From Candidatus Scalindua japonica (GTDB lineage Bacteria; Planctomycetota; Brocadiia; Brocadiales; Scalinduaceae): DNA of 64,000 nt. Location of the stretch: assembly GCF_002443295.1 (NCBI RefSeq), contig NZ_BAOS01000028.1:62001-126000 (forward strand), written 5' to 3'. Positions 50,395-55,505 of this stretch are shown piece by piece; the first letter of the stretch is position 1; the number at the start of each line of letters is the position of its first letter. Below the pieces are notes generated by a model. It was not told the DNA's origin. It did not search any database and saw only the letters and a program-made list of their open reading frames with translations. The translations under genes were made by a program, and so were the position numbers.

Positions 50395-52371
50395 TTAAAT
50401 CCCAAGTTCTTTTCTCTTTTTCTGAATATGATTTATCATAGCCTTTGCAGATTCTTTGGGATCGATTTCTATTATTAAGGTGCTTCCGGTAATTCCTTCC
50501 ATCTCTTTTGTGAGTTTATTGATTACGTATGGAGAGCCTCCCAGTTTTGGTGTAACACCGATGTGAGTGGTTATACCAAGAGAGATGACGCCCATGTAGA
50601 TAGCGGCAGCTTTTTCAACAACATGTTCTGCAGCGCTCGCCACCAGGGGGAGTTTGTCTATTGAGGTTTCCAGATAGTCAGCGATTGCAGATGCCAGTAC
50701 CGCACACCTGGAGTTGTCAACACATGAGCCGAAATGCAGAATTGGCGGCATAGACCCATTCAACCCTGCAGACTTTCCAAGTGTTTTAAGTACTCCCCTG
50801 AGTGAATCGCCAACCAGATGCATTGCCTCCCCATTTAACAAACCATGCCTTGCGCAACCAGTTGCTGCACAACCTGTTGCGAGCACAAGGACGTTGTTTT
50901 TGAGCAGTTCCTTTGCCATCGTTACAAAGCTCATATCGGTTTGAATTTTTGAAGACAGACATCCGGCAATTACCGCTACACCCTGAATAGAACCGTCAAT
51001 AATAAAATCAACTAATGGCTTTAACGGTTCATCAGGGTTTATTTTATTAAAAATTTCAATCAAAACTTCTGTAGAAAAGCCACCCATCAATTTGTTCCCT
51101 TTTGTCTTTGGCAGGAATACCCTGTCCACTGAGCGATCTTTGTAAGCTGCAATAGCTTCTTCTACAATCTGAGTGGCAGCTTTGTCAGCGTTGTCCGGTG
51201 TAAATTCTATGTAGGTATCGTTGTCCATTCTCAGTTCCGGCATGGTAGTAATTAATCGAGTGTGAAGCGATTTTGTCATGGCTGAGAGTGATGGATATAC
51301 GCACTGCACGTCTACACATACGGCATCAACCGCTCCCGTACCAACAATAAGTTCCTGCATGATCGTGCTACCTGCCATAGGGATTCCAAGTCGCATCAGC
51401 ACTTCGGTACCAGTACAGCAAGTCCCTACGATGTTTATACCTTTAGCGCCTGCAGCTATCGCTTTTTCCTTAAGTTTGTCCGCATAGTTGATTACCATTT
51501 CTGATAGTACGGGTACGTGACCGTGTACCAGAATATTAACCTTCTCTTTGTCCAGGACATCCATCCCGATTTTGCCTTCCTTTGGTGTGGGGACACCAAG
51601 TAAGATGTCCTGAAGTTGAGTAGAGATGTAAAGCGCCAGTACGTCTATTATTCCAAATTTCAGACACGACATAATCAAGTGATCAGTGCTGCTCATCATT
51701 CCCTGGGCAGTACTGTGGATCCCCTGTACTATTGTTTCGGCAGCTCCTTTTTGTGGGATGAGGTTTGCATCTACGAGTTTATCAATATTTTTCGGAGCAA
51801 GAGCAAGTGCAAAGCTCATTGGACCTTCACCTGGGCCAACAAGGTCTTCCATTGCCTTTTGACCAACCTCTCTGGCAATATCAAGGGTGTTCTTATCGTT
51901 TGTGTCAATACCAAGTTCGCAGGCAACCGCATGGAGTTTTGCTTCTGCCTTTATAGGAAAATTATCAGAACCTTCAGCAGCTTTTACGAATAACTTTGCA
52001 ACATGTATTGCATGACCAATGTGAGAACTTGTACCACGCAGAACAGTCTGCAGGAACATTCCGGCAACCATATTATCGGCTGTTTTACCACAAGAGGAAC
52101 GCTTTAACCTGGGCACTGCAATCTTTGTGTGAAATGATATCTCTTCACCATCCAGTCTGCATGGCCCAAGGTTACAGTTACGGCAGCAGAGGCCATGACT
52201 TCCAAAAGAGCATCTATCCTTAAGCCCAAAGAGACTTGAGTCGTATGCTGCCTGTACATCCCAGACCGTATCGATGCCTTTTTGGCGTAAAAAGGCCACG
52301 GTCTCTTCAATTTGTTTATCAGCAATTCCTTTTCCGCGTAACTCTTTTTCCTTTTTCAACCATTTCTGCAT
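50395..52371 (-). CDS. cooS: Anaerobic (Ni-Fe) carbon monoxide dehydrogenase catalytic subunit
   Basis: CooS interconverts CO and CO2 with ferredoxin-type acceptors; with acetyl-CoA synthase it forms the carbonyl branch of the Wood-Ljungdahl pathway. The N-terminal clusters are in CSFGSHGLCCRNCNLGPC (D and B clusters). C-cluster region motifs are HGHVPVLSEM, VGTCCTGTE, DVQCVYPSL, ATGCAATGCARHG and HFGSCVDNSR, so the Ni-Fe site seems complete. I chose ATG 52371, which has GAGGAAAAG just upstream; a TTG at 52398 would add nine residues. The gene is monocistronic, with no cooC, cooF or acsB nearby. Confidence 0.96.
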   Translation of the reverse strand: MQKWLKKEKELRGKGIADKQIEETVAFLRQKGIDTVWDVQAAYDSSLFGLKDRCSFGSHGLCCRNCNLGPCRLDGEEISFHTKIAVPRLKRSSCGKTADNMVAGMFLQTVLRGTSSHIGHAIHVAKLFVKAAEGSDNFPIKAEAKLHAVACELGIDTNDKNTLDIAREVGQKAMEDLVGPGEGPMSFALALAPKNIDKLVDANLIPQKGAAETIVQGIHSTAQGMMSSTDHLIMSCLKFGIIDVLALYISTQLQDILLGVPTPKEGKIGMDVLDKEKVNILVHGHVPVLSEMVINYADKLKEKAIAAGAKGINIVGTCCTGTEVLMRLGIPMAGSTIMQELIVGTGAVDAVCVDVQCVYPSLSAMTKSLHTRLITTMPELRMDNDTYIEFTPDNADKAATQIVEEAIAAYKDRSVDRVFLPKTKGNKLMGGFSTEVLIEIFNKINPDEPLKPLVDFIIDGSIQGVAVIAGCLSSKIQTDMSFVTMAKELLKNNVLVLATGCAATGCARHGLLNGEAMHLVGDSLRGVLKTLGKSAGLNGSMPPILHFGSCVDNSRCAVLASAIADYLETSIDKLPLVASAAEHVVEKAAAIYMGVISLGITTHIGVTPKLGGSPYVINKLTKEMEGITGSTLIIEIDPKESAKAMINHIQKKRKELGI

Positions 52372-52442
52372 TTTCTTTTCCTCTAATTGAAACCTCAAAA
52401 AGACCCATTTATTAATTAAGTTGCTAGCAATAAAAGGCTATC

Positions 52443-52847: not shown

Positions 52848-55505
52848 ATGAGTGATATTATTAAAGAAGAACCGGTGGGAAATAATTCCACATTCATAAA
52901 AGACAATAGTATTGACTTCAAAAAAATAGATGACCCTCTTATTAAAGATGCCCATATTCCGGAACATTTTGATTTGAAGGTTTCTTCTGAAAATGGCCTT
53001 CAATTATCTAAAAGAAATGAATTGAGACATGCTGTCGGGATCGTTGCCGCAAGGACTTTAAGGTATTTCAGCACTAACGGAGAAGAATTCAATGTATTTC
53101 GTGCAAGACGTATGGCGGTCTGGTGGTTCAGGCATATTTATAATAGCTTCAACTGGTGGAAGGCTTATGTGGTAAACGCGGAGGGAGAGCGGAAAGAGAT
53201 GCCAATGTTGTATATAGGCGAAAGATTGGGTTCTGAAACGGTACAAAAAGATTGTGAGGCAGATATTGTGCTTAGTGCCTTCGAGAATGATCGTTGTTTA
53301 GTTGATCCGGAATCTGAGGGAGGCGTAGTTGTTGCTGTTGGCTATAGCGAAAGACAGAAGTTGTTTAATTCACCCGATATGTATTGTGTAAAGGCTATAG
53401 TTGGAAACAAATACAAAGACGCCGGGGTAAATATAACGCATGGTATTACAAAAAACATGAAGCTTATGGCTGAAAAGGTACTTAAAGATAAAAATAAGGA
53501 GATCAATCCGCAAAATATTGATGATGAAATACAAAAAATGAAGATTGTTGTCCTGGACAGGTTGAGACACAAAAAACTAATAGAAACCATCGAGAAATTA
53601 GGCGCAGAAGTAATCCGTGTAAAAGAAGATGATCTCACACCCACATTTGCAGTAACAAAGGGCGAGATTGATATGATCATAGGAGTGGGAGGTGTTCCCG
53701 AAGCGGTTTTGAGTGGAATAATAGTCGCGCAACTGGGAGGAGAAATGACATTAAGGATATTGCCACTTGAGGTGGCTCGTGAAGAACGGCTATTGGGAAA
53801 ATTAAAGAATTGGGGTCTTTTCAGAAAAAATGAAGTAGATATTTTAAAAAATTTTAAGATTGTTAGGCCCGGCACAGAGAAAGAGGGAGAAATACCATGG
53901 GACAGGATATTGACATTAAATGATCTGGTTAAAAGAAATGATAATGTCTTTACTGCAAGCATTATTAAGGAGACACCATGGATAAAGTTTACTGATGGTA
54001 AAGTGGTCCCTGGTATGAAAATAAATCCGGAATCCGGAGATATTAATGTCTACGTTGTTCGAGTTGCGGAAAATAGAGTTGAAATTGTTCCTATTTTGTA
54101 TAAGACGCATATTGGTACACTTTTGTCCAAATATAAAGATATTAAAGAGGTAAATGGCGATGCTGAAGTAAGCTTGCTCGTCCAATTAGGAAAAACATAC
54201 ATCGAGTTTGGTCTGTTTCAAGAGGCAAGAGATTGTATTCAAAAGGCCAAAATATGCAAAGGTATTAGCAACGACATGCTACAGAGATGTAATTCCGTGT
54301 ATGAATACATTTCAGGATTAGACTTTCTTACAAAAAAATCCTTACAGACGCCAAAGGAGATAATAGAACATTTCGAAAAATCTGGCCATTTAGATGAAGA
54401 AGATAAAGAGCAGCTGAGGCCAAGGAGAATGGTCAAAAGATTTTATGAATATCATGGAGACAAAGACTACCGCAACAAATTATATGAAGACGCTCTTGAA
54501 CACTATAACAAAGCATTAGAATATAGCCCGCACGAATTGAAATTGCATCGGAAGGTGCACACAATACAGATGAGAGACATAATCGAAGAATATTTTGATC
54601 GAATTGATAAAATATATCAAGGACTCAATTATAAAGATCCAAAGACTCTGGAAAAATGCAAGCTTGGAGTAGCGCTGGAAATCTTTTATGACTATAAAAG
54701 ACAACTCAATTTTTCCTGCAGAAATCCGTGGCTTATTTTTTACAGGAGGACGGTCTTACACGGAGAAACACCTTCCTATAAGCTGGCAGTATTAATCAAA
54801 TTACTGAAATTACATAAAAAATTGAACCGGGCAAGCGATGAAGAATTATCACTGTTTTTGAATGCGGAATTCGGCATCAGCAAAGAAGAGATAGGTATAG
54901 TTACTGCTTACAGGAAGAAACATGAAACATTTCATTCTGTCAGTGAGCTCTATTTTGTTAAAGGATTGAGCCTGGAAGGCCTGTCGAATTTGCTATTCCC
55001 ATCTGTAAGGATAGAGAGTCAGAATGAGCTGGAAGATTCTGAGATCCCTCTAAGTATCAGTCTTGTTGAGGCGGTTGAAAGAAGATACAGAAATATCCTT
55101 GAGGAACTTAAAGACGGGGTTAAGAAAGAGGCGCAGGAACATTCATATGCAGTTGCAGAGGCTTATCATTATGTGGGCCTGGCGCTTTATGATGTAGGCG
55201 ATGATGAAGGGACGAAAATCAACTATGAAAGGGCAACAATAAAATTTCAGGAAATAATAGATAAGTTTACGGGAATAACACCTTTTAACGCGCAATGTCG
55301 AATTGGTAATCTTTACGAAGAGTTAGCTCTCTTATATGAGAATGAAAAGGTCAATTATTACAACAAGGCGATGGACGCTTACACCTATATCATTGAAGAA
55401 CGGAGATCAAATATTATGTTTGGCTACATCCGAGACTTGATGGCAATCAGAATATGGCAGACTAAAGAGAGAGTAAATTGTATAGAAAAAGAGTTGCAGT
55501 TGTGA
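52848..55505 (+). CDS. GlpX-like (class II FBPase) domain fused to TPR-type helical region; likely pseudoenzyme
   Basis: An 885-residue protein. Residues about 60-420 align by eye with class II fructose-1,6-bisphosphatase GlpX: PMLYIGERLGSE (119-130), LFNSPDMYCVKAIVG, VVLDRLRHKKLIETIEKLGA, DMIIGVGGVPEAVLSG and VKRNDNVFTASII. Residues about 430-885 are helical with TPR-like pairs (ALEHYNKALEYSPHELKLHR, AEAYHYVGLALYDVGDD). The catalytic metal loop seems lost: DIAVDPIEGT of GlpX corresponds to DIVLSAFEND here (S143 for Asp; only E146 kept), and the GRGDKN-type loop reads STNGEEFN. AEGE (111-114) retains the GEGE glutamates. It may be a regulatory or scaffold protein. It is a lone gene, ending 51 bases before the permease end. 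Confidence 0.7.
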   Translation: MSDIIKEEPVGNNSTFIKDNSIDFKKIDDPLIKDAHIPEHFDLKVSSENGLQLSKRNELRHAVGIVAARTLRYFSTNGEEFNVFRARRMAVWWFRHIYNSFNWWKAYVVNAEGERKEMPMLYIGERLGSETVQKDCEADIVLSAFENDRCLVDPESEGGVVVAVGYSERQKLFNSPDMYCVKAIVGNKYKDAGVNITHGITKNMKLMAEKVLKDKNKEINPQNIDDEIQKMKIVVLDRLRHKKLIETIEKLGAEVIRVKEDDLTPTFAVTKGEIDMIIGVGGVPEAVLSGIIVAQLGGEMTLRILPLEVAREERLLGKLKNWGLFRKNEVDILKNFKIVRPGTEKEGEIPWDRILTLNDLVKRNDNVFTASIIKETPWIKFTDGKVVPGMKINPESGDINVYVVRVAENRVEIVPILYKTHIGTLLSKYKDIKEVNGDAEVSLLVQLGKTYIEFGLFQEARDCIQKAKICKGISNDMLQRCNSVYEYISGLDFLTKKSLQTPKEIIEHFEKSGHLDEEDKEQLRPRRMVKRFYEYHGDKDYRNKLYEDALEHYNKALEYSPHELKLHRKVHTIQMRDIIEEYFDRIDKIYQGLNYKDPKTLEKCKLGVALEIFYDYKRQLNFSCRNPWLIFYRRTVLHGETPSYKLAVLIKLLKLHKKLNRASDEELSLFLNAEFGISKEEIGIVTAYRKKHETFHSVSELYFVKGLSLEGLSNLLFPSVRIESQNELEDSEIPLSISLVEAVERRYRNILEELKDGVKKEAQEHSYAVAEAYHYVGLALYDVGDDEGTKINYERATIKFQEIIDKFTGITPFNAQCRIGNLYEELALLYENEKVNYYNKAMDAYTYIIEERRSNIMFGYIRDLMAIRIWQTKERVNCIEKELQL

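Follow-up and report, generated by a model that had tools for sequence, protein, structure and literature searches.

The gene at positions 52848..55505 (+, ATG start) of the window, the 64,000-nucleotide stretch of Candidatus Scalindua japonica DNA analyzed here, encodes an 885-residue fusion of a domain resembling the class II fructose-bisphosphatase (FBPase) GlpX to a tail of TPR repeats. It represents an undescribed protein family, confined to the anammox order Brocadiales as far as sampled and pattern-based searches go. The loss of catalytic residues is fixed across the fusion family, and both halves of the protein are under purifying selection. The residue pattern indicates that the fusion is very likely catalytically inactive and that its pseudo-FBPase domain likely binds a sugar phosphate, and it probably acts as a scaffold or metabolic sensor and not as an enzyme. 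The reading favored here, by a modest measure, is an anammox-specific GlpX pseudoenzyme that binds fructose 6-phosphate (F6P) or a similar sugar phosphate and passes this on via the TPR tail. In the literature searched, no relevant report was found on anammox GlpX, GlpX-TPR fusions or FBPase pseudoenzymes.

The GlpX fold that the initial annotation placed at residues 60 to 420 is well supported. Pfam reports FBPase_glpX (PF03320) at residues 86 to 408 (137.7 bits, E 5.2e-40), and the PDB sequences matched by the N-terminal part are exclusively class II FBPases (E 1.5e-19 with phmmer, 5.7e-29 with a profile). Structurally, an AF2 model of the domain (residues ∼60 to 425, 53025..54122, +) aligns with E. 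coli GlpX (2r8t) at Z 22.1 over 287 residues (rmsd 4.0; Foldseek E 2.3e-15), compared with Z ≤7 for unrelated folds. The first ∼125 residues of this domain-only model (residues 45 to 169, containing R87, K116 and SAFEND) have a pLDDT below 50, and the model supports the fold but not side-chain geometry there; the full-length AF2 model has a pLDDT of 57 in the GlpX half, and its geometry in that half was left unused. The motifs PMLYIGE, SPDMYC, GVGGVPEAVLSG and SAFEND read as originally described. The fusion shares with class II FBPase GlpX (PF03320; TIGR00330; PDB 3d1r, 2r8t, 7txg) the fold, the 6-phosphate triad, most sugar-hydroxyl contacts, residues E57, E88 and E213 (E. coli numbering), and the PMLYIGE and GGxPE motifs. 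Unlike GlpX, however, it carries the replacements D33R, D61K, D85S, G89N and T90D, scores 108.2 bits on TIGR00330 (under the equivalog cut-off of 259.3), and adds an N-terminal extension and a TPR/helix-hairpin-helix (HhH) tail of ∼460 residues.

The helical-repeat nature of this tail, also proposed initially, is confirmed. TPR repeats occupy residues ∼437 to 592 (54156..54623, +), which are helical in the model, with Pfam TPRs at residues 443 to 467 and 541 to 562. The latter matches TPR_2, which is detected in 16 of 17 members of the fusion family (best E 4e-12); taken by itself, the window protein falls just short of the cut-off, at 26.6 bits against 27. An additional element, absent from the initial annotation, is an HhH, ComEA-like stretch at residues 659 to 707 (54822..54968, +; TIGR00426 E 7e-4, below its cut-off; HHH_3 in 5/17 members, best E 0.0045). 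It is followed by C-terminal, TPR-like helical hairpins at residues ∼738 to 883 (55059..55496, +), assigned from the secondary structure of the model (pLDDT mostly 70 to 88 from residue 771). Helical hairpin repeats of this kind are shared with TPR scaffold proteins such as MamA, consensus TPRs and the OGT TPR domain; unlike these, the C-terminal half of the fusion has no match outside the fusion or outside Brocadiales in 392 planctomycete genomes (E 1e-8).

Orthologs of the fusion were found in 46 of 62 Brocadiales genomes, and the relatives of the window identified by search are anammox bacteria of this order, the closest named one being Candidatus Scalindua. Scanning the genomes of 84,980 species with patterns derived from two conserved peptides returned 38 loci. 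Where titles are informative, the loci all belong to anammox bacteria (Scalindua, Brocadia, Jettenia, Loosdrechtia, Anammoxibacter, Brocadiaceae); the remainder are labeled just Planctomycetes, Planctomycetota or Planctomycetia. In a sample of 199 genomes from the phylum, hits outside Brocadiales reached only 37 to 78 bits and were GlpX-type matches; as searches beyond the order were sampled or pattern-based, a rare outsider is possible. No viral relatives were found. The family comprises two clades. Clade B is a second, divergent fusion with the same layout, ∼24-28% identical to clade A and present in seven genomes of the window's (Scalindua) family, including a 988-residue paralog in the window's own 4.8-Mb genome (C47:20947-23910; L003:2948-5911). 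One Candidatus Anammoxibacter genome (G199) carries three fusion copies (L098-L100), which suggests a lineage-specific expansion.

Crystallographic work on class II enzymes assigns roles to the active-site residues. D33 activates T90, and the D33-T90 pair is required for catalysis; a T84A variant (T90 in E. coli) is inactive; one metal has D85 and E213 as ligands, another D33 and E57 (PMC5892879). A D61A variant is essentially inactive, and in F. tularensis T89 (T90 in E. coli) is the proposed nucleophile, with a canonical Mn site formed by D84 (E. coli D85), a backbone carbonyl and, via water, E57 (PMC10289334). These positions were compared in 46 distinct clade A and seven clade B proteins, aligned with E. 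coli GlpX and nine catalytic GlpX proteins from planctomycetes. Not one of the 53 family proteins has kept D33, D61, D85 or T90. Position 33 is Arg in every one (46/46 and 7/7; R87 in the window protein, 53106..53108, +), and position 61 is Lys in 52 (45/46 in clade A, 7/7 in clade B; K116, 53193..53195, +). In the window protein, the DPxEGT motif reads SAFEND (residues 143 to 148, 53274..53291, +): D85 is replaced by S143 (Ser in all 46 clade A proteins, Asn or Thr in clade B), G89 by Asn (Asn or Ser in the family), and the nucleophile T90 by D148 (Asp in 42 of 46 clade A proteins, and never Thr), while E88 is kept as E146. E57 corresponds to E112, and the metal ligand E213 to E285 (53700..53702, +), conserved in 45 of 46 clade A proteins and Gly in all of clade B. 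The initial annotation had described the catalytic residues as lost, naming five acidic positions. This holds for D33 and D85, and so for part of the metal site, but not for E57, E88 and E213, which are retained, and the list lacked D61 and the nucleophile T90, which are also gone. Its call for a conservation check in other genomes of the group is answered by a loss fixed across all 53 family proteins.

The (nearly) invariant new site residues R87 and K116 and the remaining E57/E88/E213 might be taken as signs of an enzyme with altered chemistry, such as another phosphatase, an isomerase or a lyase, acting through these residues and D148. There is a small chance that this is so: against it, the residue at position 148 is variable (Asp, Gly, Ala or His in clade A; Glu or Gln in clade B), the metal ligand D85 has become Ser, Asn or Thr, and E213 is lost from clade B. 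Counting against the pseudoenzyme reading, E57, E88 and E213 could retain weak metal binding.

The opposite half of the site is conserved. In class II FBPases, Y119, K/R164 and R166 hold the 6-phosphate, and the sugar hydroxyls are contacted by E88, D186 and D188 (PMC5892879). In the alignment, Y119, R164, D188, E57 and E88 are kept in all 53 family proteins and R166 in 52. In the window protein, the 6-phosphate ligands are Y179 (Tyr119; 53382..53384, +) and the pair R238 and R240 (Lys164 and Arg166; 53559..53567, +), and E260-D261-D262 (53625..53633, +) covers the positions of Asp186, the 2-OH contact, and Asp188, the invariant 4-OH contact. Position 186 is Asp or Glu in clade A (Asn once) and non-acidic in clade B. 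Apart from E213, clade B shows the same division between lost and kept residues as clade A, in a more degenerate protein. A set of 10 catalytic GlpX proteins has 73 invariant columns, 22 of which (∼30%) are retained in both clades, among them the positions of E57, E88, Y119, R166 and D188; against this background, the retention of ligand positions stands out. Since the part that removes the 1-phosphate is gone and the part that holds F6P is kept, the pattern is a split and not general decay.

The relaxed D186 contact would also fit a sensor of a ligand other than F6P or FBP. Some class II enzymes take sedoheptulose 1,7-bisphosphate, and some GlpX enzymes have interface sites for AMP and citrate (PMC5892879), so that sedoheptulose or another ketose phosphate, or an interface effector like AMP or citrate, might be sensed instead. 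The odds of this are slim, as the FBPase pattern is preserved at the 6-phosphate triad, E88 and D188.

Genome content shows how the order meets its need for FBPase activity. Ordinary, catalytic GlpX is absent from all 62 Brocadiales genomes searched. Class I FBPase is present in 46 of the 62, and in the window's genome its FDPLDGSSNID and LLYEASP motifs are intact. The nine genomes of one family, f3 (G138, G182, G201-G207), encode a class V FBP aldolase/phosphatase (PF01950) instead and have neither class I FBPase nor the fusion; the class I and class V enzymes never occur together in one of the 62 genomes. As an FBPase, the fusion is thus dispensable, and the idea that it is the sole FBPase can be dismissed, since most genomes of the order encode a class I or class V enzyme. 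Several anammox genomes have class I FBPase without the fusion, which is therefore not essential to the pathway. The co-occurrence of fusion and class I FBPase (39/7/7/9, Fisher p 0.0025) is driven mostly by a single clade (f3) and carries no weight as independent evidence.

Selection acts on the two halves alike. Nei-Gojobori dN/dS is ∼0.08-0.18 in most comparisons for both the GlpX and the TPR half, values that are approximate given high synonymous divergence in several comparisons. A dN/dS of ∼0.1 rules out a decaying pseudogene for the family, though isolated broken copies exist: fusion genes with frameshifts or stops occur in Candidatus Brocadia carolinensis (L141) and at G210:C192:27280-29885, either as true pseudogenes or through sequencing error. 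Conserved catalytic loss, retained ligand residues and purifying selection, the combination that marks a metabolite-sensing pseudoenzyme, thus coincide in this family. The initial proposal of a non-catalytic GlpX domain with a protein-interaction tail, perhaps sensing a sugar phosphate, is accordingly sustained in outline, at the level of sequence, by the family-wide fixed loss, the selective retention of 6-phosphate- and sugar-binding residues, the purifying selection, the supply of FBPase by other genes and the TPR tail.

Genomic neighborhood analysis gives no partner. ORF clustering of the 38 loci yielded no neighbor kept beyond close species and no conserved neighbor pointing to sugar metabolism, and no riboswitch or structured RNA was detected near the fusion gene at Rfam thresholds. 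A CO dehydrogenase (Prismane/CODH family) gene lies at 50395-52398 (-) of the window, divergent from the fusion gene; within the 38-locus set, such a gene upstream of the fusion, often divergently oriented, is seen only in Scalindua-type loci. The missing operon partner, the vanished catalytic residues and the TPR tail, together with the tetrameric state of characterized class II FBPases (PMC5892879), would be compatible with a purely structural scaffold in which the GlpX domain is an oligomerization module for the tail and binds no ligand. This is unlikely, because the 6-phosphate triad and D188 are invariant (R166 with a single exception) in two clades ∼25% identical while adjoining active-site positions have changed, which is unexpected for surface-only use.

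In the pseudo-FBPase domain, the 1-phosphate-cleaving half of the site (the nucleophile Thr90, its partner Asp33, the metal ligand Asp85, and Asp61) is lost and the half holding F6P (Tyr119, Arg164, Arg166, Asp188 and Glu88) is kept. Under the favored sugar-phosphate-binding model, F6P, FBP or a similar ketose or sugar phosphate probably sits in the retained half-pocket without hydrolysis. R87 and K116 replace acidic residues by the old metal and 1-phosphate sites and may stand in for metal; alternatively, R87 may pair with D148 in place of the D33-T90 pair, in a segment where the AF2 model is unreliable. More speculatively, an Asp at position 90 would repel the 1-phosphate and favor F6P over FBP. 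Ligand binding, perhaps in a GlpX-like tetramer, would change the presentation of the C-terminal TPR/HhH tail to a partner protein, and the fusion would thereby report how much hexose phosphate is present or the flux through gluconeogenesis. Binding of partner proteins is common for TPR tails, and sensing via this one is plausible. Points that weigh against the model include the relaxed D186 contact, the lack of a conserved gene neighbor and the absence of the fusion from several genomes with class I FBPase. An analogy, and no more than that, is offered by the glucokinase regulatory protein (GKRP), an F6P-responsive regulator thought to derive from a sugar-phosphate enzyme; unlike the fusion, GKRP is eukaryotic, has an unrelated fold (SIS domains) and a known partner.

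A second degenerate GlpX lineage, unrelated to the fusion, single-domain and without TPR repeats, shows a matching division between lost and kept residues in another planctomycete order, with near-full matches in 4 of 148 genomes. Its loci include L024/L167 (G057:C43:187563-188507) and L166 (G435:C24:1419-2366), and the G057 and G435 sequences were examined in full. In G057, the replacements are D33H, D85L and T90V, and DPLEGT reads LPIDGV. In the lineage, GEGERDEAPMLYIGE gives way to a GDG...GE stretch, yet Y119, K122, R164, R166, D186, D188 and E213 are kept. With a PF03320 score of ∼310 bits, it would pass for an active FBPase in annotation. If confirmed, the parallel would point to a path from GlpX to a sugar-phosphate receptor that evolution has taken repeatedly. 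A bolder and rather doubtful extension is that the two lineages form a new GlpX-derived class of F6P/hexose-phosphate receptors that evolved two or more times within Planctomycetota, as a TPR fusion in anammox bacteria and as a single domain in the other order. In each case the 1-phosphate chemistry would have been lost and the grip on the sugar 6-phosphate kept, and in anammox bacteria the receptor would report gluconeogenic flux to a partner.

The fusion is an annotation trap, as PF03320 would label it an FBPase. Anammox bacteria are slow-growing autotrophs of global importance to the nitrogen cycle, and little is known of how they control central carbon flux. The residue pattern predicts binding without turnover, abolished by changes to R238, R240 or Y179, and makes the fusion a concrete candidate for a hexose-phosphate sensor of the anammox order.
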